Assembly (NCBI GenBank): GCA_012729395.1
Contig: JAAYDF010000022.1
Location: forward strand, 1-61,516
Length of the DNA: 61,516 bases
Direction of reading: 5' to 3'
DNA from: Phycisphaerae bacterium
Lineage (GTDB): Bacteria; Planctomycetota; Phycisphaerae; UBA1845; PWPN01
Shown here one piece after another: positions 46,290 to 58,312 of this stretch. Every line of letters starts with the position of its first letter. Position 1 is the stretch's first letter. Under the pieces are notes generated by a model that was given only the letters and a program-made list of their open reading frames with translations, ran no database searches and had not been told where the DNA came from. The position numbers and the translations under genes were made by a program.

Positions 46290-47059
46290 AAAGGGGACGC
46301 AGCTCTTTTTCTGGACACGCGGTTGGCATGAGGTTATCCTCTGGCCATGCCTCGACAGGCTCGATTCGCTCCGGGAGGGCTGGTCTACCACGTGCTGAAC
46401 CGCGCCGTGGCCCGGCTGCCGTTGCTGACCAAGCCCGCGGACTATGAGGCGTTCGAGCGGGTGATGGCCGAGGCCCACGAGCGTCACCCGATCCGCCTGC
46501 TGGCTTACTGTCTCATGCCCAACCACTGGCATATGGTCCTGTGGCCGCGGGAGGACGGCGAGCTGACGGCATTCGTCCGGTGGCTGACCCACACGCACAC
46601 CATGCGCTGGCACGCCCACCATCATACCACCGGGACGGGTCATCTGTACCAGGGGCGGTTCAAGTCCTTCCCGGTCCAGACCGATCCGCACTTCCTGACC
46701 GTCTGCCGGTACGTGGAGCGGAACGCCCTGCGGGCCAGGCTGGTCACCAGGGCCGAGAACTGGCGGTGGGGCAGCCTCTGGCGGCGGCGGTGCGGTGATC
46801 CCGAGGCCCGGGCGATCCTCTCGGACTGGCCCATCGACCGGCCGCGGAACTGGGTGCACTTGATCAACCAAGCGCAGAGCCCGGAGGAGATGGACGCCCT
46901 CCACAAAGCAGTCCAGCGCGGCACGCCCTTCGGCTTACCCGCCTGGACAACGCGCACCTCTGTCCGGCTCGGACTGGAATACACTCTCCGCCCCCGCGGC
47001 CGGCCCCGCAAAACGCCAAAACCAACCCCCCAGCAAGAAAAATGAGTTGCGTCCCCTTT
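46290..47059 (+). mobile_element. RAYT element: REP-type transposase gene between inverted repeats
   Basis: The gene at 46347-47045 is bracketed by a 24-bp imperfect inverted repeat. Left is 46290-46313, starting AAAGGGGACGCAGCTC. Right is 47036-47059, whose complement starts AAAGGGGACGCAACTC. About 22 of 24 positions match over the common part. The right repeat overlaps the end of the coding sequence. No target duplication is obvious. Confidence 0.75.
46347..47045 (+). CDS. REP-associated tyrosine transposase (Y1, IS200-like, RAYT)
   Basis: A 232-residue single-strand DNA transposase. It has the typical start (RFAPGGLVYHVLNRAVARLPL), the metal-binding HxH in MPNHWHMVLW, THTMRWHAHHH, GHLYQGRFKSFPVQ and the catalytic Tyr region VCRYVERNALRARLV. 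RAYTs bind and cleave hairpin REP sequences and are usually domesticated single-copy genes. The gene is complete. It could be responsible for spreading one of the hairpin repeat families in this window, but the flanking repeat AAAGGGGACGCA does not match them. Confidence 0.9.
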   Translation: MPRQARFAPGGLVYHVLNRAVARLPLLTKPADYEAFERVMAEAHERHPIRLLAYCLMPNHWHMVLWPREDGELTAFVRWLTHTHTMRWHAHHHTTGTGHLYQGRFKSFPVQTDPHFLTVCRYVERNALRARLVTRAENWRWGSLWRRRCGDPEARAILSDWPIDRPRNWVHLINQAQSPEEMDALHKAVQRGTPFGLPAWTTRTSVRLGLEYTLRPRGRPRKTPKPTPQQEK

Positions 47060-47114
47060 CCCCTTCCATTGCATGTACGCGAACAAGCTTACACCCTATG
47101 CAAGAAAAGGCACG

Positions 47115-47900
47115 TCATTGCTCCGGGTCCGAACTTGCCGGCGTAAACAGATCCGCGTATTGCGGGACGCCGTCCCTCAGTCGAATGGCGTCCAGTTCAT
47201 CGCCTCGCACCGAACGGTGCAGGAGCGATTCCACGAACTCCGCCGGCAACAGCGGTCGAGGGCTCGGGATTCGTGGCTCGATGTCGTTGCATCTGTTAAT
47301 GGCCGTCGAGAGCGACACGCCAAATCGTCGCGTGAGCATGGGAAGCAGTAGCTTCCGCCACATCCATTCGGATTCGCGCGTCGTCTGCATCAGTTCCCAC
47401 GTGCATCGAACCCTATCCATGCGGCACTCATCGAATACCTTGATGACCTCAGCCTCGACCAGGGGCAGCGGCATCAAGAACGCGGCAGCGAACCGGTCGG
47501 CCTCGCGCTCGATCATGTCGTCCGAGCCGGGGCCAAGGTCGCTGGTCTCATGGAACTCGGGCCGCACCTTCTGGTGTAGCAGCATGTGGCCAAGCTCGTG
47601 GGCACAAGTGAACCGGCACCGTCCATCGTGGTCGATGACCTGCTCATCAATGAGGATCTCGCGCTCGCGGATGAAAGTTGCACCGAGCACCCCCTCGCCC
47701 AGATACGACAGATCAGCAAAGCCGAAATGGAATCCGAGCGGCGACTCAATCCACTGCTCCACGGGAATCGGGAGTTGAATCTGACCGAGCCCGAGCGCGT
47801 TGCGGCAGCGTTCCAGGCAGTTCCAGGCACGGCGTTCGATGACCCGCCTTCCGTAGGAGGGGTCGAAGACCCGGGTTGGCAGCTTCACGGATCCAACCAT
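47115..47900 (-). CDS. ImmA/IrrE-family metallopeptidase
   Basis: A 261-residue zinc peptidase (COG2856 type). The HExxH motif is TCAHELGHMLLH; the third ligand Glu is in MIEREADRFAAAFLMP. The N-terminal part (ILIDEQVIDHDGRCRFT) is typical. ImmA/IrrE proteins cleave partner repressors in mobile elements, stress responses and toxin-antitoxin-like modules. The usual XRE-type helix-turn-helix partner is absent: neither the sequence nor the 137-bp upstream gap contains one. It lies between the RAYT element and the GT2/TIR operon, so it could belong to the right-hand conflict locus, but this is unproven. Confidence 0.85.
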   Translation of the reverse strand: MVGSVKLPTRVFDPSYGRRVIERRAWNCLERCRNALGLGQIQLPIPVEQWIESPLGFHFGFADLSYLGEGVLGATFIREREILIDEQVIDHDGRCRFTCAHELGHMLLHQKVRPEFHETSDLGPGSDDMIEREADRFAAAFLMPLPLVEAEVIKVFDECRMDRVRCTWELMQTTRESEWMWRKLLLPMLTRRFGVSLSTAINRCNDIEPRIPSPRPLLPAEFVESLLHRSVRGDELDAIRLRDGVPQYADLFTPASSDPEQ

Positions 47901-48036: not shown

Positions 48037-49623
48037 CTAAACCCTATACCATTGCCACATCAGCCACAGCGCGTAGACATACGCTGCCGCAGGGAGGGCA
48101 ACGACCAGTCTCGCCACGATTCCCATGAACGAGCTCTCGTTCAGGCGTTCGAACAAGGGAATCCCCGCATACGCAATGCCCAGGCCGCATAGCACGGGCG
48201 TGAAGGGTGAATACCAGCGAACCGCCAGCACAATCGTCGCGATTCCCAAGGCCAGCATTGCGGTTCGGAGTTGCCAGGTCAGTTGGGGCTCCCGTCCCTC
48301 CTTGGGAGTGCGGTCGAAGGATGGTCGGCGCCGGAGCAGCAGGTGAATCGAGAACCTCCAAGCTGCGATCGGCAACGCGGCGCCGTAGATCGCCGTGGTC
48401 CACATGTATTGCCGCAGCGCATGAAACAGGTTCGGCGACACGGAATTGAGCACCGGCAATGGCGACATGAACATCACGACGAAGACGTAGGGCAATGCCG
48501 GGTGCAGGGCGGCGATCCGCATCTCCCAATACCGGTGACACACATAGGCGCTCAAGTAGCCGTTGAGGAAGATCAGGGGCATCAGCACGTACCAGCCGAA
48601 GAGCATCGTCATGTCGATTTTCTCGGTGAACCGTGCCGGCCCGACCAGGAATTTGAGAAAGTGTCGGCGTACCAGTTCCGCGGTCCCGCCGGCAAACTTG
48701 CGGAAGCGGATCAGAAAGGCGCCGAACGAAGGGGGAAACGATTCCCAGGCCTGGACCTCAGCCGCGTACGCTCCCAGCCAGCCCCGGTTTCGCATCTCCA
48801 TGGATATGGCGAAGTCCTCGGAGACCACCTCGGGGAACGGAACCTCCCGCCAGGCAGTCAGCCGCAGCGCTGCCCCATGACCGATCATCGGCAAGAAGCC
48901 GTAGGTCGCGCGCAGCGGAAGGTCGTACGAGTAAAACACCTCGATCTCATTCCCGAGAGCTTCCTGGAACAGGGTCGACGGGACCGGCAATTCGTGATCC
49001 GAGATCTGCCGTGCCTGGACGTAGCCGACGTTATTCTGCGTGCGCGCTACGACACTTGCGAACCGCCTCACGTAATCCTGCGGCAAGTGCTGGTCGGCAT
49101 CAACGATGATCGCCCACCCGGCGTCCCCGCCCACCTTCTCCAATGCGGCATTGAGATTACCGGCTTTGAAGCCGCGGCGGTCGGATCGGCGGAGAACCTC
49201 GACTTCTGGAAACTGGGAATGGAAGTCGTCGATGCGTGCGACGAATGCGGGGTCGCGGCTGTCATCGCAAATCACAACGCGAAACCGATCCGCGGGGTAA
49301 TCCTGCGAACAACACGAGTAGCACGCCTGCCACTGGAAGTCGTCGCACGTCGGATAAAGAACCACAAAACGAGGCGTCGCATCCTCCGTCAGCGCCGAGG
49401 CAGGCCGGGCCTGGCGAAAGAGCGACGTAAACCGGAACGTCAGATGGTGGAGCGACCACCACAGCACAGCCCACCAGATGGCCATGTTCACCAGGCTCAA
49501 CCAGGCCAACGACCTGTCCTGCAGATCGACTCGTCGCATCCACGGTACGCCCAGGAAGACGGTGAAGGCAATCATCGCGGCCAGCGGCAGGAATACCAAC
49601 ACGGGATTCTTCGTGTGGTTCAT
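48037..49623 (-). CDS. Membrane GT2 glycosyltransferase (cellulose-synthase-like)
   Basis: A 528-residue processive-type GT2. Two N-terminal helices (LVFLPLAAMIAFTVFLGVPW, LSLVNMAIWWAVLWWSLHHL), then the GT-A domain: RFVVLYPTCDDF, VVICDDSRDP, IIVDADQHLP (DxD), VSEDFAIS (catalytic ED) and RFRKFAGGT in place of QxxRW. About five C-terminal helices follow. It would polymerise a nucleotide-sugar into a beta-glucan or similar glycan and export it. Its start overlaps the stop of the TIR-GH17-like gene (ATGA), so the two are co-translated. GT2 and GH17 domains are combined in some beta-glucan modifying proteins (NdvC-like). Confidence 0.9.
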   Translation of the reverse strand: MNHTKNPVLVFLPLAAMIAFTVFLGVPWMRRVDLQDRSLAWLSLVNMAIWWAVLWWSLHHLTFRFTSLFRQARPASALTEDATPRFVVLYPTCDDFQWQACYSCCSQDYPADRFRVVICDDSRDPAFVARIDDFHSQFPEVEVLRRSDRRGFKAGNLNAALEKVGGDAGWAIIVDADQHLPQDYVRRFASVVARTQNNVGYVQARQISDHELPVPSTLFQEALGNEIEVFYSYDLPLRATYGFLPMIGHGAALRLTAWREVPFPEVVSEDFAISMEMRNRGWLGAYAAEVQAWESFPPSFGAFLIRFRKFAGGTAELVRRHFLKFLVGPARFTEKIDMTMLFGWYVLMPLIFLNGYLSAYVCHRYWEMRIAALHPALPYVFVVMFMSPLPVLNSVSPNLFHALRQYMWTTAIYGAALPIAAWRFSIHLLLRRRPSFDRTPKEGREPQLTWQLRTAMLALGIATIVLAVRWYSPFTPVLCGLGIAYAGIPLFERLNESSFMGIVARLVVALPAAAYVYALWLMWQWYRV

Positions 49624-51065
49624 CCGGCTACCCTCCGCAGCCGCATCCAACGGCCGACCACTGCCCGCGGTTTCCCGTCGGCATGGAACAACCCCGTGTA
49701 CGGATCCCAGGGCAGGAAGCTGCCCCCTTGCTTCCAGGGTGAATCGAAAGCGCCGTGCACGACGAGGGCCACGGGAATCCGGGTTCCCGACAACGGATCG
49801 CGGATGGCGTTCACAACTCCCTCAAAGTAGTCGGCCTGGCGATGGTAGTCGGGCTCCTCCTGAAGCGTGTTGCGCACCGGATACGTCAAGGATTTGATCA
49901 TTACCGGTTGGTCGAATCGTTCGGCGATCGCCGCAATCCGTTTGAGTTCGCCGACGGTCGTCCGGATATCCCCCTCGAGGTCGTGCAGGCTGTAAGCGTG
50001 ATGCACGTCTGGACAAAGGAAATCGCCCATCGCGTTCAGCCGGCTCGCTTCGGGGGTGTATTGCTTTGCCAGTTGTGTCGTCGCCACCGGTTTTCGGGTG
50101 CGATCGCGCAGCCAGCGCAAGGCATGTTGAAGCTGTCTTTCGCTGCACAAGGTGAGCCCTGTGTCGTCGCTCAGGCAATTGTGCCCCACGCAATAGGCGT
50201 CGACGTATTGCCGGTTGTCATAAGCAATCCGGAGTTCGTTGTCGTCGAGGGGATTCCAGACCCCCATGATCACCTTGAAGCCATGCTCGTGGGCCAACCG
50301 CGGGATGCAAGCGAGGTCCGGTCGGCTCCCGTAGGTGACGATGCCCGTGAATCCGACCTCGCGGAGCGTCGCCAGCTCGCGAATGATCTCCAGCTCGGTG
50401 GTGCTGTCGAGTACGGCCGGGTTGAAGCGGGCCGGTTCGTAGCCGATCCAACTCGACTGGTGCAGAAGCTGAAGTACCTCGGTGCGTTCCGGCCGCCATT
50501 CGGCAACAATGGTCGACAGGAACATGATCAGCGTGCAGAGCGCCAGGCCAGCGGTTCCCAGCGCAGCTCGCCACAGGTGTCGGAGGCCGCCCTCCGCCTC
50601 GTGCTGAGCACGTCGCCCTTGAAGCATGCCGATCAGTCCGCTGACCGCCTCCCCCAGCCGTTTCTGACGCTCATCGTCGGGCAACTGATCGAGGGGAGGG
50701 TGTGGCGGAATCAGCGACTGTACCTTCCCATAGGTGGCCATCCGGTAGTCCGCGTTGTCCACACGAACCCAGGTGAGATAGATGCGGCCCTGGTCGTACA
50801 GGCTCAACAACTCGGGGAGTTCCAGGTTGCGGATGAAATCGGAATCGTGGAAGCTGTTCGAGACAATGAGACATCCAACCCTGGCGCGAGCCAGAGCCTT
50901 TGCGATTTCCCTCTTCCAGTCCTCCCCTGCCTGGACGCGCTTATCCGTCCAGATCGTTTCCACCAGATCGGGGTCGGCCTGCTTGCGGAACTCGTCGAGA
51001 ATGCACTCGAGCCAGGCCTGATCCTCGTGTGCGTAGCTGATAAACAGGATTCGTTGCTTGCCCAT
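49620..51065 (-). CDS. TIR domain, transmembrane helix, GH17-like ectodomain
   Basis: A 481-residue protein from the ATG at 51065, where the TIR domain begins. Residues 5-150 are a TIR domain (ILFISYAHEDQAWLECILDEF, IWTDKRVQAGEDWKREIAKAL, VGCLIVSNSFHDSDFIRNLELPELL-type pattern). Residues about 165-190 form one hydrophobic helix (AALGTAGLALCTLIMFLSTIV). Residues 200-481 resemble GH17 (VGFTGIVTYGSRPDLACIPRL, HGFKVIMGVW, AFDSPWKQG, YTGLFHADGKPR). The GH17 acid/base motif (VGNE) reads VGHN (293-296), and the nucleophile motif (usually GExGWPS) reads IKSLTYPV (390-397), so the enzyme is probably inactive. Likely a membrane receptor with a cytosolic TIR. The next gene is GT2. Confidence 0.85.
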   Translation of the reverse strand: MGKQRILFISYAHEDQAWLECILDEFRKQADPDLVETIWTDKRVQAGEDWKREIAKALARARVGCLIVSNSFHDSDFIRNLELPELLSLYDQGRIYLTWVRVDNADYRMATYGKVQSLIPPHPPLDQLPDDERQKRLGEAVSGLIGMLQGRRAQHEAEGGLRHLWRAALGTAGLALCTLIMFLSTIVAEWRPERTEVLQLLHQSSWIGYEPARFNPAVLDSTTELEIIRELATLREVGFTGIVTYGSRPDLACIPRLAHEHGFKVIMGVWNPLDDNELRIAYDNRQYVDAYCVGHNCLSDDTGLTLCSERQLQHALRWLRDRTRKPVATTQLAKQYTPEASRLNAMGDFLCPDVHHAYSLHDLEGDIRTTVGELKRIAAIAERFDQPVMIKSLTYPVRNTLQEEPDYHRQADYFEGVVNAIRDPLSGTRIPVALVVHGAFDSPWKQGGSFLPWDPYTGLFHADGKPRAVVGRWMRLRRVAG

Positions 51066-51385: not shown

Positions 51386-51607
51386 TCAGTTATCTTGTCC
51401 TTTCCTGTGCCTGGTGACGGCTCGTTTCGGCCGTACGGAACGCGCGTTCCGGTGGTCGCGCTTGTGCACGGCCAATTTCGCCGCCTTGAGCATGGTCGGC
51501 CAGCTTTTGACCGCATCGCTGTCTTGCTGCCTGATCTCCTCGGCCAGATCGCGCCAGGCGACCAGACAGTTGTGCTTCAGCTTATCATCATCCCGTTTCT
51601 CGTCATA
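51386..51607 (-). pseudogene. Truncated RyR-domain relic
   Basis: Reading from 51607 on the minus strand gives YDEKRDDDKLKHNCLVAWRD, then LAEEIRQQDSDAVKSWPTML. This aligns with the second half of RyR domains (RDDxxKxHxxLVPW...). The frame is closed immediately upstream by TAG (51608-51610), no start codon is available and the first half of the domain is missing. It ends 1 bp before the ATG of the intact RyR gene. Probably the decayed remains of a second RyR gene. Confidence 0.7.
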
Positions 51608-51656
51608 CTACGGCCCGGCCGACTCGCCCGGAACGGGAGCGTCCTCGCTGATCCGA

Positions 51657-52070
51657 TCAGACGCCTTGCCGGCCGCCCCGCTGAAGGTAATCCACGATGA
51701 ACTCGTGCAACTGCTCGCTCATGTCCAGGTGGGCCAACTCGCCCGGCGGCACCCAGCAGTAGTCGTCGTGCTCGTCGCTCAGACGCACCTCGCCCGCTTC
51801 GAGGCGGGCTTCAATGAACAGCACCGCCAGCCGGATCTCGGGCATCTCATAGTGCGTGGCCCCGGCCACCTTGTCCAGGGCGATGGTCAGCCCGGTCTCT
51901 TCAGCCACCTCGCGCAGCAGGGCGGCGTCGAACGCCTCCCCGGCATCAACCTTCCCGCCGGGGAACTCCCACGTGCCGGCAAAACGCTTGGATTGCGCCG
52001 AGCGGCGAAGGAGCAGGATCTGTCCGTGCGAGTCGTTGATAATCGCCTTGACACCCAAGCCGTAAGGTTT
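51657..52070 (-). CDS. NUDIX hydrolase
   Basis: A 137-residue protein with an intact NUDIX box (GKVDAGEAFDAALLREVAEETG) preceded by RRSAQSKRFAGTWEFPG, similar to the MutT/8-oxo-dGTPase or general nucleoside-diphosphate-X hydrolases. It would hydrolyse a nucleotide derivative, possibly a signal nucleotide made by the locus (inference). The ATG at 52070 starts the domain; longer in-frame starts add unstructured sequence. It sits between the STAND gene and the RyR gene. A second, decayed NUDIX copy lies at 58135-58312. Confidence 0.9.
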   Translation of the reverse strand, partial: KPYGLGVKAIINDSHGQILLLRRSAQSKRFAGTWEFPGGKVDAGEAFDAALLREVAEETGLTIALDKVAGATHYEMPEIRLAVLFIEARLEAGEVRLSDEHDDYCWVPPGELAHLDMSEQLHEFIVDYLQRGGRQGV

Positions 52071-52276
52071 CATGCATCGTCCTTCCCGAACACAGCAGTC
52101 AGCAGCACATCCGCCACGGTGAGCGGGATCGCTGCCCACTGTCAGCCAATCCCAGTACACAGCTCCCTGCATGATTACGCAATCAAGCGAACATCCGGGT
52201 TCCTTTGCAGCAACCCGTTCGGCCGAGAAGCTCGCGACGGAATCGTCCATGACCATACAGCGAAGATTCTTTGAAG

Positions 52277-55200
52277 TCATGAGGCCTCTGGGCCGGACGA
52301 GCTCGGGCCATATCGACGCTTCAGTTCCTGAGTCGCTGCAAGAGCTTCCTGCGGACTGCGGCCTGTGCGCTCCAACAGGATACGATAGAACTTGGTGGCA
52401 GGCGCCCGCTCGGGTAGAGCGTGTCCCGTGGCCTTCTCGATACTCCACATGATCCGCAGTGCCCGGCGCATGCGCTGTTCTGCTTCTTTGAAGCGGTTTG
52501 TCTTAGTCAGCAAAACAGCCAGGTTGAAGAGGGCCTTGGCGAGGTCCGGGTCATCTGTTCCAAGCGACCGTTGCTGCCAGATGGCTAGTGCCTGACGCAT
52601 CTTCATTTCAGCGTCGGTCAACTGGTTCAGGCGAGCAAGCACCGTAGCCAGGTTGTTGAGGCGGATGGCCACCAATGGATGGTCTTGGCCGTAGCTCCGC
52701 TCGTCGATGGACAATGCTCGGCGAATCAACTGCGCCGCCTCGGCCGGCCGGTTCATCAGCAATAGCGTGCTCAAGTTACTGAGGCATACGGCTATTCTTG
52801 GATGATCCTTACCCAGGTTCATCTCGGCAATATCCAGAGCTTGGCGTATATGCTGCTCGGCTTCGCTTGAGCGGTTTGTGGCCCGCAGCAACTCAGCCAG
52901 GTTGGCTAGGTCTCTTGCCACTGATGGATGAGTCTGACCAAGAAACTCTTGATCGATGGCCAAGGCTTGACGCAACAAGCGCTCGGCTTCGGCCGGGCGG
53001 TTTGTGATAAGCAGCAACTGCGCCAAGTTGCTGAGGCCTGTGGCCAAACTCGCGTGATCCTTGTTGGGACTGCTCTTGAGGATTCGAATCGCTCGACGAT
53101 ACATCTTCTCAGCTTCCGGTAGCCGGTTCGCAGCCCGCAGTACTTGACCCAGACTGGAGAGATCTCTGGCCACATTGGGGTGGACCGGGCCAAGCAGTTG
53201 TTTATCGACGGCCAGCGCTCGGCGACATAGCTTCTCGGCTTCAGCCAGATGATTTGTTTCTATGCATGAGGCAACGAGGCCGCTGAGAACCGACGCGATG
53301 TCTACGGGGCTCTCTCCAGGCGACCGCTCCAGATAATCAAGCGCACGGCGCATCAGCGGTTTGGCCTCGGCGTGGAGGGAAGCGTGGCCCAGAAAGAGAC
53401 CCAGCACATGCGCGACAAAAGACGCATCTTGTTCTCGATTGCCCGGCAACCGCGACCACAACTCGAAGGCCTCACGGTAGGCCTTTCCCATGCTCCGCTC
53501 TTCACCCAGCCAGACCCAGTAGCGGAGCAACTCGTTCTGGTCTCGCTTGCGGATGAGGAGAAACTGATCAATAGCGAGCAGGCAGGCGCGGAGACGATCC
53601 CGCTCGCCGGCTTCGCGGAGTTGCCAGGGAAGCTCGGTCGCGGTGCGCGGCGTCGGCGGCTGGGGCTCGAAATAGTCGGCCAATGCGCGGTGGGCGGCGC
53701 GGATGTCCGCGTCGTCGTCCAGGAACTCGGCCCGGACGGCCTGCCGCAGGAAATCGTGCCCGAAGGCGAACAGGCCGGCGTGCCGGGCGAGGTGTGGCTC
53801 CAGGGCGTAGAAAAACGGTGTCCACACCTGCCGGGGCAGCGGTGTCGCGGTGGCCAGCAGTTCCAGCCACTCGGTCTCCGCCAGACCCTGCCGGGCTGCC
53901 CAGAGGTGGCGCAGGGCGCGGCGGACGAGGTCATAGCCGGCGTCGAAGTCCTGCTGCCAGCGTTGGAGCACGAGTCGGAAGAGGGCCTCCGGCGTGGTGG
54001 CCTTCAGGTAGCGGGCGACTTCGGCTGGCAACCGTTCGAAGCTGCCGAACTGCCGCAATTCCTCCAGTACGGTGCGCAAGAAGAGCGGATTGGCCGCCCC
54101 AGGGGCGGTTGCGATCTGCCGCCGCAGATCCGGTTGGAGCGTTTTGCGGTAGTGATCAAGGAATGCCGCAATCATGGCATCCCGCTCCTCCTCGTCGGGC
54201 AGGGGCAGCGGATGCTTCGTCCAGTCGCGCTCAGTGAGGGCATCCAGAGATGGGCCGGGCAACGCGGACGCGATCACACGGACCTGGGGTGGAAAGTGTC
54301 GTGGCAGCCAGACGAGCCGGCGGTCGGCCTCATCGCCCTCGATCTGGTTGAGGGCATCGAACACCAGGACGATCCGGTCCCGGCCTGCCGCCTGGGCCAG
54401 CCAGAGGGGCAGGATCTCGCGCAGCTTGGCCGAATCGGTGGGGATGTCCTTGGTGATGGCGTAGCGGCTCTTCAACTCGCCCAGCAGGCGGACAAGGAAG
54501 CCCGAAACCGTGGCGCTCTCCGGGGTGGCCCCGAAATAGTGCTCGAAAGCGAACTCGTCGGGGTGGCCCTGTCGCCAGTGCCGCATCCAGGCGGCCAGCA
54601 GCGCGGTCTTGCCTCCGCCGCTCGGGCCGGTGAGGACAAGGCCCTGACCGGTGGGCTCGGCCGCTACAAAGGCGTCGATTGCGGCGGTGTGTGCTGGCCG
54701 TTCCACGTAGGCCAGCAGCTTGCCGGCGGCGTAAGCGGCGTGGCCGCGGGCCTCGCGGGTGATCGCGTCGGGGATCTCGTCTTTGGGGTAAAGCTGATCG
54801 ATCAGGTTGAGGAACTGCTGGCGCACGGCGTCGGCCAGGGCCTGGGGGTTGGCGTAGGGCTCGACCAACGGCTTGCCGCTGCAGCGAATGCGCCCCTTGA
54901 GGGCGGCGAGTTTCGCCCGGCGTTCAGCCGTGCGCCGAGTAGCCTCGGCCGCGCCGTGTGTTTCGACGTCGGCAGGGATGTTGCGCTCAACCATCTCCAG
55001 GCGTTCGGTCTCGGGCAACGTGTCCACGTACCCTGGATCGCGAAAGTAGAAGAAGGCGTGGTCGTCCATGGCCGGGTTGTTGAGCACGCCGTGCAGGATC
55101 TCCAACTCGGTAACCGAGGTGCGTCCCCCGACATGCTCTTGCAGCCAAGGCTCGCGGGCCATCACCTCCGGCGGCACCGAGTCGGGAATCCAGCCGTAGC

Positions 55201-55492
55201 GCCCGCCCAGCAATCCGATGAAGTACGGCCGGCTGCGGTGGATCTCCTCCAGGCAGATGGGCAGAACCTTGCCCTCGGCGGCCTGTTCCTCGGTGATGCC
55301 CCAGCGGAGGTCGACTTCGGTAAAGGTCACGAACCGTTCGGCGCAGACGCGGCGCAGCTCGGGGAAAACCTGCTTGACCAGCAGTTCCCGCTCCGCTTGC
55401 ATGTCGCGGAAGGTGGAGGAGATGAAGACGCGGATGACGCGGTCGCCTTTCGGCGATGGGTTCCCGCTGGCTGATGGGAGCGTGGCGTTCAT
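52277..55492 (-). CDS. DUF4062-STAND NTPase-TPR protein
   Basis: A 1071-residue protein. Residues 18-140 are DUF4062 (VIRVFISSTFRDMQAERELL, EVDLRWGITEEQA). Residues about 260-600 are a NACHT/STAND-type NTPase with Walker A GPSGGGKT (289-296) and Walker B IVLVFDALNQ (374-383), then a winged-helix-like region. Residues about 740-1010 hold six kinesin-light-chain-type TPRs with a 42-residue period (AEAEKLCRRALAVDKQLLGPVHPNVARDL-type units). This is the layout of STAND sensors such as NPHP3-like and Avs-type immune proteins: a repeat sensor, an oligomerising ATPase and an N-terminal effector or adaptor. The start is 3 bp after the RelA-SLOG-RyR gene's stop, so translation is coupled. Confidence 0.92.
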   Translation of the reverse strand: MNATLPSASGNPSPKGDRVIRVFISSTFRDMQAERELLVKQVFPELRRVCAERFVTFTEVDLRWGITEEQAAEGKVLPICLEEIHRSRPYFIGLLGGRYGWIPDSVPPEVMAREPWLQEHVGGRTSVTELEILHGVLNNPAMDDHAFFYFRDPGYVDTLPETERLEMVERNIPADVETHGAAEATRRTAERRAKLAALKGRIRCSGKPLVEPYANPQALADAVRQQFLNLIDQLYPKDEIPDAITREARGHAAYAAGKLLAYVERPAHTAAIDAFVAAEPTGQGLVLTGPSGGGKTALLAAWMRHWRQGHPDEFAFEHYFGATPESATVSGFLVRLLGELKSRYAITKDIPTDSAKLREILPLWLAQAAGRDRIVLVFDALNQIEGDEADRRLVWLPRHFPPQVRVIASALPGPSLDALTERDWTKHPLPLPDEEERDAMIAAFLDHYRKTLQPDLRRQIATAPGAANPLFLRTVLEELRQFGSFERLPAEVARYLKATTPEALFRLVLQRWQQDFDAGYDLVRRALRHLWAARQGLAETEWLELLATATPLPRQVWTPFFYALEPHLARHAGLFAFGHDFLRQAVRAEFLDDDADIRAAHRALADYFEPQPPTPRTATELPWQLREAGERDRLRACLLAIDQFLLIRKRDQNELLRYWVWLGEERSMGKAYREAFELWSRLPGNREQDASFVAHVLGLFLGHASLHAEAKPLMRRALDYLERSPGESPVDIASVLSGLVASCIETNHLAEAEKLCRRALAVDKQLLGPVHPNVARDLSSLGQVLRAANRLPEAEKMYRRAIRILKSSPNKDHASLATGLSNLAQLLLITNRPAEAERLLRQALAIDQEFLGQTHPSVARDLANLAELLRATNRSSEAEQHIRQALDIAEMNLGKDHPRIAVCLSNLSTLLLMNRPAEAAQLIRRALSIDERSYGQDHPLVAIRLNNLATVLARLNQLTDAEMKMRQALAIWQQRSLGTDDPDLAKALFNLAVLLTKTNRFKEAEQRMRRALRIMWSIEKATGHALPERAPATKFYRILLERTGRSPQEALAATQELKRRYGPSSSGPEAS

Positions 55493-55495
55493 AGG

Positions 55496-58069
55496 TTACT
55501 TCCTGTAGACCTCCAGCCCGGCCTTGGCGAGGATTTCGGGGAAGGCCCGGACAGCGTCGTAGTCGAACTTGCGGGAGTCATCCAGGATCTTGTCGGTCCA
55601 CGGGACGATCAGGTTGTGAATCTTCCTGTCATTGTCACGCCGCTGGCCGTAACGCCAGCCGCTGCGCAGGCGCTCGACGTTCCAGCGGCCGTGTTCGAGG
55701 GCGGCCATGCGGTCCAGCTCTTCCTGCGTGAAGCCGGTAGAGATGACGGGCTGGGGCCCCGTCGCCTGACGCACGCCAAAGCCGACGGCTTCGAGTATGC
55801 AGATGGCATAGCGAGCCTGTTCGAGATTGGCCGTCTTGTAGGTATCACCGAGTTTGCTCCACGGTCGCAGGTTCTCGGGTAACTGCCTGGTGTTGTCACC
55901 CACGTACCGGCGGTGGAACTCCATGCCCATCTCTTCCAACACCGATGCCGGGAACGTGTGATCGGAAGGCAGTACAAACGCCCGGATCGTCGCCGTGTCG
56001 TACGGTAAGGGCAGCAGGTTAGGATCGTCCGCCCACAGCGGGTCGCCGATGAGTGCGTCGGCTTCCCCGCCCGATTCCATGGCCACGCCCACGGTAGCCC
56101 CCAGAGCCAGGGCGATGCGATACTCCAGGGCGCTCAGCGGCCCGCCGCCGAAGCCCAGCACCCGAACTTCGCACGGCTTGATGCCGATGGTCAGCAGGTC
56201 GGCCCAGCCCCTGAGAAGCTGGTCAGGTGAGAAGTCGGCTTCCTCGCCTACGACAGGTGGTAAGTCGTAGCGCTCGTCTTGGGGGGCGTCGTGTGGCAGG
56301 CGTCGAGGGATGTAACCGACAAGATGAAACTGCTTGCAGCCGCCAGCTTTAAGTTCCGCCGCCGCCCAGCCGACACAGCCCGGCACGCCAGAGTCGGTGC
56401 CTCCGGAGATCACCGTACCGGCAAACGAACGGAGCGAATCCTTCAGGATGAGTTGTACTTTGGGGATCATGTCTGCGGGCAGACTGGCGGCGCCGCCAGC
56501 AACGACGAGTGTGGGAGCGTTGAGCTTGTCCGCATGGCTCGACGCTAAGCGCTTGGCCTGCTCGGCGTACAGCGAAGACGAATCTTGGAAGGCCCTCGCC
56601 AGGAGCAGCAAGCCCTTGACCCATTCATGTTCGGGCGGTGGCTTCTGGCCAATGTGGATGCGGCGAATGAAGGCCAGCTCGTTATCCAGGACATCGCCAG
56701 GCACGCAAGCCGTCCCGGAACAACAGTGCCGCAGGCCGCAAGCGTACCATTTCAACGCCTCGACCCCCTCTGCCAGCAGGAGGTTCAAACGACCGGCCGT
56801 GAAACAGGCATACGGCATCTCGATACCCGCCAAGGCATGTTCCCGGCAGGTGTGGATCGCCTCGCTGACGGCAATGCGCGTACTGGCAGTCAGTTCTGCC
56901 GAGCGCGTGATGAATATCTCGAAGCCCAGGATGTCGGCCAGGTGGTATGGATTGGTCGGCTCACATTCGAGTGCCCGACGGTAGCAGTCCAGAGCCTGAG
57001 GTTCGCCCTCTTCCACGCATTCCCATGACCAGCCCAACCGTGCCAGCCCGCGTGCGTGCAGACTGCGGCTCTTACGAGCGTCCACTGCGATAGCCGTATC
57101 CTTCTGCTCCCCCAGATCGACCGCCTTCTGCAAGAGCGACTGGCCTCGTCGATATTCATTCGAGATCCAGTCCCTTCGGTGCATCTTGCACAGGGCAGAG
57201 CCCAGTTCGATCAGCACCTCTCGCCGCAACGCACCTGTGATCGATTCGTATGGTTTCAGCAACTCGACTACTTGCTTGTAATCGCCTGTGGCGTTGGCAA
57301 GCAGTTTCGCCAGACGCAACGTCAGCGAGGGACGTTCATCGGCCGCGGTATCCTCCGACAGGTTGGCTAAAACCGCCGACAAGACCGCTACCTCGTTGTC
57401 CACATCCTTTCGCTGGGCATGCGAGGTGTAGTTGGCCAGCATGCCGTCCACCTCGTTGGCCAGTCGGTCGAATGTACGGTCGCCGTCCTCCATGACAGCC
57501 GCCAGCAGGTTGCCAAGCCGGCGGGTCTCCGGCGAAAGGCGAAGCTTGGTCTTGTACATTCGGTCGTGCAATGTGTCGGCCCAGGCGTGCTGCACCCAGG
57601 TGCGCACCTGGATCTCCGCCTTGCGCTCCCCAATGGCTGTCCGCTCTTCCGCAGTGATCCCGAGGTCGCGGTCGTCGCGCAACTGCACGATGTAGTGCAT
57701 GTCGCGGTAGCCGAACTTGTCCTCCTGAAGTAGAAGGGTCTTGTCATCCTTCTCGATGATCTCGAAGTTTGCCTCGATGAAATGCCGCACCGCCTTGACC
57801 TGTTCCAGCGTTTGAACCGTTACCCGCCCGCCGCACAGATCGGTCATCTGGTGGACGGCATCTGGGTACTTGTCGAACTTGCGGGCGACCTTCTCGGCAA
57901 AGCTGGGGATGGTCTTGGCCCGCGCCTGAACCAGGACCTCGGGGAAGGCCGTCCTGCAAGCGCTTTCCATAACGCGACGAAGAACGCCCGCATAGATCAC
58001 GTAGTACGGCCGTTCTTGACTATACGCTTCGATCTGTTCCTTGTGCTTCTGAAGGTCAAGCGTTGCCAT
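55496..58069 (-). CDS. RelA/SpoT-like synthetase, helical repeats, SLOG and RyR domains
   Basis: An 857-residue protein. Residues 20-215 are a RelA/SpoT-type nucleotidyltransferase: AKTIPSFAEKVARK, MTDLCGGRV, YRDMHYIV and AEIQVRTWVQHAWAD, including the Glu of EIQVRT. No HD hydrolase domain. Residues about 245-460 are TPR/Sel1-like helices. Residues 518-690 are a TRPM-type SLOG (LSDAT) nucleotide-binding domain (VVAGGAASLPAD, VISGGTDSGVPG, LGFGGGPLSALEYRIALALG). Residues about 715-855 are RyR with its N-terminal companion (PWSKLGDTYKTANLEQA, LEHGRWNVERLRSGWRYG, RDNDRKIHNLIVPW). It could synthesise a nucleotide messenger and sense one. AGGAGA precedes the ATG. Confidence 0.9.
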   Translation of the reverse strand: MATLDLQKHKEQIEAYSQERPYYVIYAGVLRRVMESACRTAFPEVLVQARAKTIPSFAEKVARKFDKYPDAVHQMTDLCGGRVTVQTLEQVKAVRHFIEANFEIIEKDDKTLLLQEDKFGYRDMHYIVQLRDDRDLGITAEERTAIGERKAEIQVRTWVQHAWADTLHDRMYKTKLRLSPETRRLGNLLAAVMEDGDRTFDRLANEVDGMLANYTSHAQRKDVDNEVAVLSAVLANLSEDTAADERPSLTLRLAKLLANATGDYKQVVELLKPYESITGALRREVLIELGSALCKMHRRDWISNEYRRGQSLLQKAVDLGEQKDTAIAVDARKSRSLHARGLARLGWSWECVEEGEPQALDCYRRALECEPTNPYHLADILGFEIFITRSAELTASTRIAVSEAIHTCREHALAGIEMPYACFTAGRLNLLLAEGVEALKWYACGLRHCCSGTACVPGDVLDNELAFIRRIHIGQKPPPEHEWVKGLLLLARAFQDSSSLYAEQAKRLASSHADKLNAPTLVVAGGAASLPADMIPKVQLILKDSLRSFAGTVISGGTDSGVPGCVGWAAAELKAGGCKQFHLVGYIPRRLPHDAPQDERYDLPPVVGEEADFSPDQLLRGWADLLTIGIKPCEVRVLGFGGGPLSALEYRIALALGATVGVAMESGGEADALIGDPLWADDPNLLPLPYDTATIRAFVLPSDHTFPASVLEEMGMEFHRRYVGDNTRQLPENLRPWSKLGDTYKTANLEQARYAICILEAVGFGVRQATGPQPVISTGFTQEELDRMAALEHGRWNVERLRSGWRYGQRRDNDRKIHNLIVPWTDKILDDSRKFDYDAVRAFPEILAKAGLEVYRK

Positions 58070-58134
58070 CGGTGTCTCCTTCTGGATGGTCCTTGAAGAG
58101 TCACTCGAACTGCCAGTGCGCGTTCACAGTATAC

Positions 58135-58312
58135 GCGAATCGGCGGCGGCTTGAGATTCGCTTCCCCCGCCGGCTTGTGCAGCGAGATGGTCGGGCCTGT
58201 TTCCTCACTCACTTCGCTCAACATGGCTGCATCGAACGGCTTGCCGGACGCGACTTCGTCGCCGGGGGACTCCCCATGTGCCGGCGAAATAGCTCGACTG
58301 GACTGAACGGCG
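58135..58312 (-). pseudogene. Frameshifted NUDIX pseudogene
   Basis: From 58312 the minus strand reads RRSVQSSYFAGTWGVP. In another frame from 58275 it continues GESPGDEVASGKPFDAAMLS, then EVSEETGPTISLHKPAGEA. Together they align with the NUDIX at 51657-52070 (RRSAQSKRFAGTWEFPGGKV...REVAEETGLTIALDKVAGA). At least one frameshift, a changed box (REVAEE to SEVSEE) and lack of start and end show it is dead. It occupies the 385-bp gap between two RyR-protein genes. Confidence 0.8.

Follow-up and report, generated by a model that had tools for sequence, protein, structure and literature searches.

The window, i.e. the whole stretch of 61,516 nucleotides from a Phycisphaerae contig that was analyzed, holds a 10 kb cluster built around a gene for a protein of 857 residues (Table 1). 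Its N-terminal RelQ/SAS-type synthetase is followed by a TPR solenoid and then by a SLOG domain of the TRPM type, and the C-terminus is formed by a Repeat12-like RyR tandem. A gene encoding a DUF4062-NACHT-TPR protein begins 3 bp past the synthetase stop codon, and an intact NUDIX gene lies 3.4 kb downstream of the synthetase gene. All three RyR domains that Pfam detects in the host genome fall within this cluster, as do one of its four NUDIX, one of its two TIR and one of its two DUF4062 domains. The first-pass annotation had been confined to the synthetase gene, without its NUDIX and DUF4062-NACHT-TPR partners, the other RyR genes or the defense context.

Table 1. Genes and domains of the synthetase cluster (positions refer to the window).
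Feature	Position	Strand	Basis
RelA/SpoT-TPR-SLOG-RyR protein, 857 aa	55496..58069	(-)	ORF list, Pfam, alignment, AlphaFold model
RelQ/SAS-like synthetase domain, residues 8-236	57362..58048	(-)	Pfam, structure match, conservation
TPR-like helical solenoid, residues about 218-508	56546..57418	(-)	structure match to TPR solenoids
TRPM-type SLOG domain, residues 517-702	55964..56521	(-)	TRPM2 MHR1/2 match; Pfam LSDAT_prok
Tandem RyR (Repeat12-like) module, residues 702-857	55499..55966	(-)	structure match; alignment with RyDEP
DUF4062-NACHT-TPR protein, 1071 aa, probable NLR-like NADase	52277..55492	(-)	Pfam; SVTELEI Glu kept
Intact NUDIX (MutT-like) hydrolase gene	51657..52073	(-)	Pfam E 2.1e-23; intact NUDIX box in alignment
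Decayed, frameshifted NUDIX, directly upstream of synthetase gene	58120..58290	(-)	HMM E 7e-7; reading frames
Remnant of another RyR C-terminus behind intact NUDIX	51461..51619	(-)	frames, similarity
Stand-alone RyR-domain protein, 92 aa	51106..51384	(-)	Pfam RyR E 8.1e-37
TIR-domain protein, begins just past stand-alone RyR gene	49620..51065	(-)	Pfam TIR_2 E 4.9e-11
AAA ATPase with C-terminal RyR, 900 aa	58455..61157	(-)	Pfam RyR E 2.1e-17, AAA E 1.3e-5

Parts of the cluster are decayed. The frameshifted NUDIX copy shares 52% identity over 44 aa with the intact one, while the RyR remnant finds its best match in the C-termini of the synthetase family, with other RyR proteins scoring nearly equal, and may derive from the end of a second synthetase gene. 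In a simple reading, a pair of NUDIX-synthetase units may once have stood in tandem in the window, with complementary decay of the two. In the TIR protein, Pfam recognizes no domain beyond TIR; past a likely membrane helix, its C-terminal half resembles a glycosidase-type barrel by eye. The next gene (48037-49650) encodes a family 2 glycosyltransferase, and just outside the cluster, at 46347-47900, genes for an IS200-like transposase and for an IrrE-like peptidase (M78) may mark its mobile boundary.

That a RelA/SpoT-like synthetase, a SLOG and a RyR domain sit on one polypeptide had been proposed from the sequence, and the open reading frame, Pfam and structure matches all agree. Pfam assigns RelA_SpoT to residues 50-175 (E 4.7e-17) and RyR to residues 785-853 (E 2.6e-10). 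An AlphaFold model based on 42 aligned family sequences reached a mean pLDDT of 90.5 and a pTM of 0.86, and each of its domains matches solved structures (VIA-align). The helical repeats suspected earlier proved to be a TPR-like solenoid, as residues 218-486 match TPR solenoids such as that of LGN with Z about 15, a value to be read with the ease in mind with which helical solenoids reach high Z. Neither an HD hydrolase, whose absence had been noted before, nor a TGS/ACT regulatory domain was found in the Pfam scan or the model. A chance fusion of reading frames or an assembly artefact is ruled out by the identical architecture in many genomes.

The full architecture is kept in at least 42 relatives from about 14 phyla, archaea among them. 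On the gene tree, the phylum labels require 24 changes compared with a mean of 25.8 after shuffling; the tree thus ignores taxonomy, and the gene probably moves horizontally. Within the phylum of the host, 12 of 392 genomes gave matches, few of them full-length. Tblastn of the whole protein against phages and plasmids returned matches to the RelA domain only, and two scans of viral contigs gave no relative of the 857-residue protein; a phage or plasmid origin was rejected on these grounds. The RelA-SLOG-RyR combination is not described in the literature that was searched, outside which Burroughs 2015 and its 2020 follow-up lie.

Residues 13-210 of the model superimpose on SAS1 of B. subtilis (5dec) with Z 18.7 and 2.6 Å over 182 residues, and the synthetase fold comes with the ATP motif RxKxxxSxxxK, the metal-binding Asp, GYRxxH and ExQxRT. 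The motifs EIQVRT (residues 152-157) and YRDMHY (residues 121-126) are intact, as had been claimed, and the catalytic residues are invariant across the family: K60, R63, D77, R82, Y121, E152, Q154, T157, H161, H168 and Y172 occur in all 42 sequences, as do R50 and K52, whose conservation is partly built in because the relatives were collected through the short motifs VQ[AST]RAK or LEHGR[WF]. This mode of collection leaves the conservation of K60 to Y172 unbiased. S56 and R156 each vary once and H125 varies in three sequences. Since a NUDIX copy and an RyR copy have decayed in the window, the synthetase might itself be inactive and act as a scaffold only; this is highly improbable, given that the catalytic residues stay invariant down to 27% identity. 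Profile comparison places the domain among the RelQ-type enzymes (73-79 bits; solved RelQ/RelP enzymes 55-79 bits) and well above CapRel (32 bits) and FaRel2 (22 bits), which favors pyrophosphorylation of a nucleotide while leaving the acceptor unsettled. The protein probably makes a nucleotide of the stringent-response type. A role as housekeeping RSH is ruled out by the RelQ-like domain and the scattering of the gene over phyla.

The SLOG domain is less conspicuous in sequence. The Pfam family LSDAT_prok (SLOG in TRPM) covers residues 519-591 with E 1.7e-5 and 24.6 bits, below the cut-off of 25.4, and reaches 28.5 in one relative (L027). This weak call is settled by the structural match, in both fold and extent, and bears out the TRPM-type assignment made earlier: residues 507-750 align with the MHR1/2 region of TRPM2 with Z 16-17 (16.8 for 9jje; 16.5 for 8sre, which contains ADP-ribose) over about 198 residues; LOG-like proteins attain similar Z over about 160 residues. 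The glycine-rich loops and E649 are kept in the family alignment. TRPM SLOG domains are also found in channels that are not gated by ADP-ribose.

For the RyR part, which is under-tested by a full-chain fold search, the C-terminal 156 residues were modeled and searched alone. The resulting model (pLDDT 93.5) matches RyR Repeat12 structures with Z 15.4 to 12 (15.4 for 6uhi; 14.4 for human RyR3 Repeat12, 9ls7), compared with 5.2 for the best unrelated chain. The RyR domain recognized at first is thus present and larger than claimed, in the form of a tandem unit of about residues 702-857, whose degenerate first repeat is missed by Pfam and whose second repeat keeps H793, W796 and D836. Together with H818, these residues align with H75, W78, H100 and D117 of RyDEP (gp78 of phage DyoEdafos), respectively. 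D836, unbiased by the mode of collection, is present in 42 of 42 family sequences, H793 in 42 and W796 in 41, the conservation of 792-796 being again partly built in by the search motifs. At position 818, most relatives carry S (18) or N (seven) in place of H (15), which speaks against the parallel with H100. RyDEP uses H75/D117 to cleave 2'cADPR and 3'cADPR (PMC13232231, 2026 preprint). Hence, fold and residue conservation suggest that a ligand of the ADP-ribose type may bind to the SLOG and/or RyR half.

Conservation of both RyDEP catalytic residues could instead mean that the RyR module is itself a RyDEP-like glycosidase that terminates a cADPR signal; alternatively, the alarmone may signal to the other RyR proteins of the cluster, and AAA-RyR and TrkA_N-RyR proteins do adjoin. 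Both options appear distinctly improbable: among eight phage homologues of RyDEP, six bound 2'/3'cADPR and none cleaved it (PMC13232231), and the fusion of RyR to several different outputs is better explained by a shared receptor. SLOG-RyR proteins without a synthetase domain (L066:1738-3009 and L068:5137-6660) and a version split over two genes (L067:9962-12465) suggest that SLOG-RyR is a separable receptor.

Neighboring genes were counted at 48 family loci from genome contigs, 44 of them with flanks on both sides. The NUDIX gene is a genuine partner of the synthetase gene: a NUDIX gene lies on the same strand within 300 bp at 30 of the 48 loci (29 of the 44 with both flanks), 19 times upstream and 11 times downstream, while control genes from the same loci gave 12 of 327 by the same criterion, some of which may count the identical NUDIX. 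Two rather different types with about 28% identity occur among the loci, which suggests that NUDIX activity is kept rather than one inherited partner. The protein is MutT-like and falls outside the recognized ADP-ribose pyrophosphatase subfamilies. Scans of the host genome, which is 99.55% complete, detected neither a further RelA_SpoT domain nor any HD_4 domain, in agreement with the lack of RSH enzymes reported for PVC bacteria (Atkinson 2011, PMC3153485). HD_4 is also absent from 13 of 28 other hosts, several of which are draft MAGs. As the host lacks HD_4, the product would not be cleared by a SpoT-like hydrolase, which leaves a plausible task for the NUDIX enzyme; a ppGpp-degrading Nudix protein is known from Thermus (cited in PMC3153485).

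The tight NUDIX pairing could also be that of a ToxSAS-like toxin with its antitoxin, in which the synthetase would either act on tRNA by pyrophosphorylation or produce a toxic nucleotide, with SLOG/RyR as triggers. In a host with neither another RSH nor an HD_4 hydrolase, a conventional stringent response may indeed not exist, and in a hand count an adjacent NUDIX gene accompanied the synthetase in 13 of 13 sampled hosts without HD_4 versus 12 of 15 with it. This difference is not significant, and an association between missing HD_4 and adjacent NUDIX was dropped on that ground. A toxin-antitoxin pair seems quite unlikely in view of the far higher scores for RelQ-type (p)ppGpp synthetases than for FaRel2 and CapRel.

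Genes for enzymes of the TIR-fold NADase type recur as well. A TIR or DUF4062 gene is located within 2 kb at 25 of the 48 loci (TIR at 20, DUF4062 at eight), and TIR_2 is the commonest Pfam family (15) among 95 neighboring proteins scanned. As about half of the loci lack either gene within this distance, some on contigs that end early and others not, the source of the signal is not fixed. DUF4062 proteins are reported to be TIR-like NADases that make ADP-ribose in phage defense (PMC13174449, 2026 preprint), and the DUF4062-NACHT-TPR protein of the window has the glutamate of the SVTELEI motif, whose equivalence to the reported catalytic Glu was judged by eye. TrkA_N-RyR, AAA-RyR and SLATT 2TM proteins are other recurring neighbors. 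In L040 and L053, a relative of the AAA-RyR protein of the window is encoded directly beside the synthetase, and in L051 and L071 nearby. At L061:4947-9521, a TIR and WD40 protein of 1524 aa is encoded by a reading frame that overlaps the synthetase stop by 4 bp, and at L072:13647-19040 a DUF4062-NACHT-TPR protein of 1797 aa includes a PTS HPr domain close to the C-terminal end.

Gating of messenger synthesis, as envisaged in the first-pass annotation, fits these data; the feedback or substrate gating offered along with it is not the best reading. In that scenario, the ligand of SLOG and/or RyR would be what the enzyme itself makes or consumes ((p)ppGpp, ATP, GTP), the NUDIX protein would clear the product, and no NADase signal would be involved. 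A model is provided by PpnN, a LOG-family nucleosidase that binds (p)ppGpp and whose structures with bound alarmone were also matched by the SLOG domain (Z 14.7-14.8). RyR3 Repeat12 binds ATP, ADP and AMP-PCP according to structure entry titles, and several loci have a NUDIX gene with no NADase gene nearby. Still, TRPM2 scores above PpnN with wider coverage (about 198 vs 182 residues), and the recurrent TIR/DUF4062 neighbors would be left unexplained, so that feedback control appears unlikely. Sensor folds known for ADP-ribose and cADPR, next to TIR-fold NADases, make an external input of the ADP-ribose type likelier.

In the best-supported account, the 857-residue protein would be an alarmone synthetase gated by a signal of the ADP-ribose type and the effector of a mobile Thoeris/NLR-like defense cluster with a NUDIX off-switch, a proposal to which we give an even chance. 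A TIR-fold NADase, i.e. the DUF4062-NACHT-TPR and/or the TIR protein, would detect infection and, by the activity reported for these families (PMC13174449, PMC13232231), convert NAD+ into ADP-ribose or a cyclic isomer. This ligand could then bind at the C-terminus, to the TRPM2-like SLOG, to the pocket of the RyR tandem or to both, and relieve a restraint on the N-terminal RelQ-like domain, perhaps via the TPR solenoid. The RelQ-like domain, whose competence is supported by its conserved catalytic residues, would use ATP to pyrophosphorylate a guanine nucleotide or another acceptor and thereby cause growth arrest. Finally, the NUDIX enzyme may prevent or end the response by removing either the ADP-ribose signal or the alarmone. 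More tentatively, and with somewhat more doubt than confidence, a relay of two messengers can be envisaged, in which the signal of an NLR-like NADase is taken up by TRPM2- and ryanodine-receptor-like readers and passed on as the alarmone of the fused synthetase, with a dedicated NUDIX off-switch, in hosts otherwise devoid of stringent-response enzymes.

Both sensor folds, here part of a bacterial synthetase, are best known from calcium channels of animals, namely TRPM2 and the ryanodine receptors; the NAD-cutting immune enzymes nearby suggest an undescribed bacterial route from infection signal to growth arrest. If true, NAD-derived immune signals and alarmones would be linked in one chain, and the ADP-ribose-sensing part of TRPM2 and Repeat12 of ryanodine receptors would have bacterial counterparts in an enzyme effector. 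It would also explain the role of an alarmone synthetase in Planctomycetota-type bacteria without Rel/SpoT (PMC3153485). Sensing by bacterial RyR domains thus becomes directly testable.

Several known systems share individual traits with the cluster. RelQ/SAS1 and RelP/SAS2 resemble the synthetase in fold, catalytic residues and absence of an HD domain, but lack the fusion to TPR, SLOG and RyR as well as the NUDIX pairing. RelA/SpoT-type effectors in defense are represented by CapRel/toxSAS, from which the protein differs in its low profile score and the absence of a known antitoxin domain. Thoeris likewise features a TIR gene (ThsB) near a SLOG-bearing effector (the SIR2-SLOG protein ThsA), whereas the SLOG domain in the window is of the TRPM/LSDAT type, RyR provides a second sensor and the output is a synthetase instead of a SIR2 NADase; neither a SIR2 nor a macro domain was found in the protein or its scanned neighbors, and the TIR gene is 4.4 kb away. 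An adjoining DUF4062 NADase-type gene recalls Swarozyc, in which DUF4062 is fused to a C-terminal auxiliary domain, and other DUF4062 NADases (PMC13174449); in the window, DUF4062 comes with NACHT-TPR and is linked to a separate synthetase gene. RyDEP (PMC13232231) has an RyR module with the identical His/Trp/Asp and is a stand-alone, homodimeric anti-defense protein of phage, in contrast to the RyR module fused to a cellular multidomain enzyme. In TRPM2, SLOG (MHR1/2) works with a NUDIX domain under gating by ADP-ribose, and the cluster also pairs SLOG with NUDIX, albeit with no channel and with NUDIX as a separate MutT-like gene. The synthetase cluster is filed as a variant among nucleotide-signaling defense systems rather than under Thoeris, Swarozyc or toxSAS. 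Burroughs et al. reportedly predicted in 2015 nucleotide-centered conflict systems with SLOG, SLATT and RyR, with SLOG, TIR, NUDIX and SLATT in shared neighborhoods. A particularly dense cluster at L069:5591-14334 comprises genes for RyR alone, a SLATT 2TM protein, TrkA_N-RyR, an inositol-monophosphatase-like protein, the synthetase-SLOG-RyR protein, NUDIX and TIR.
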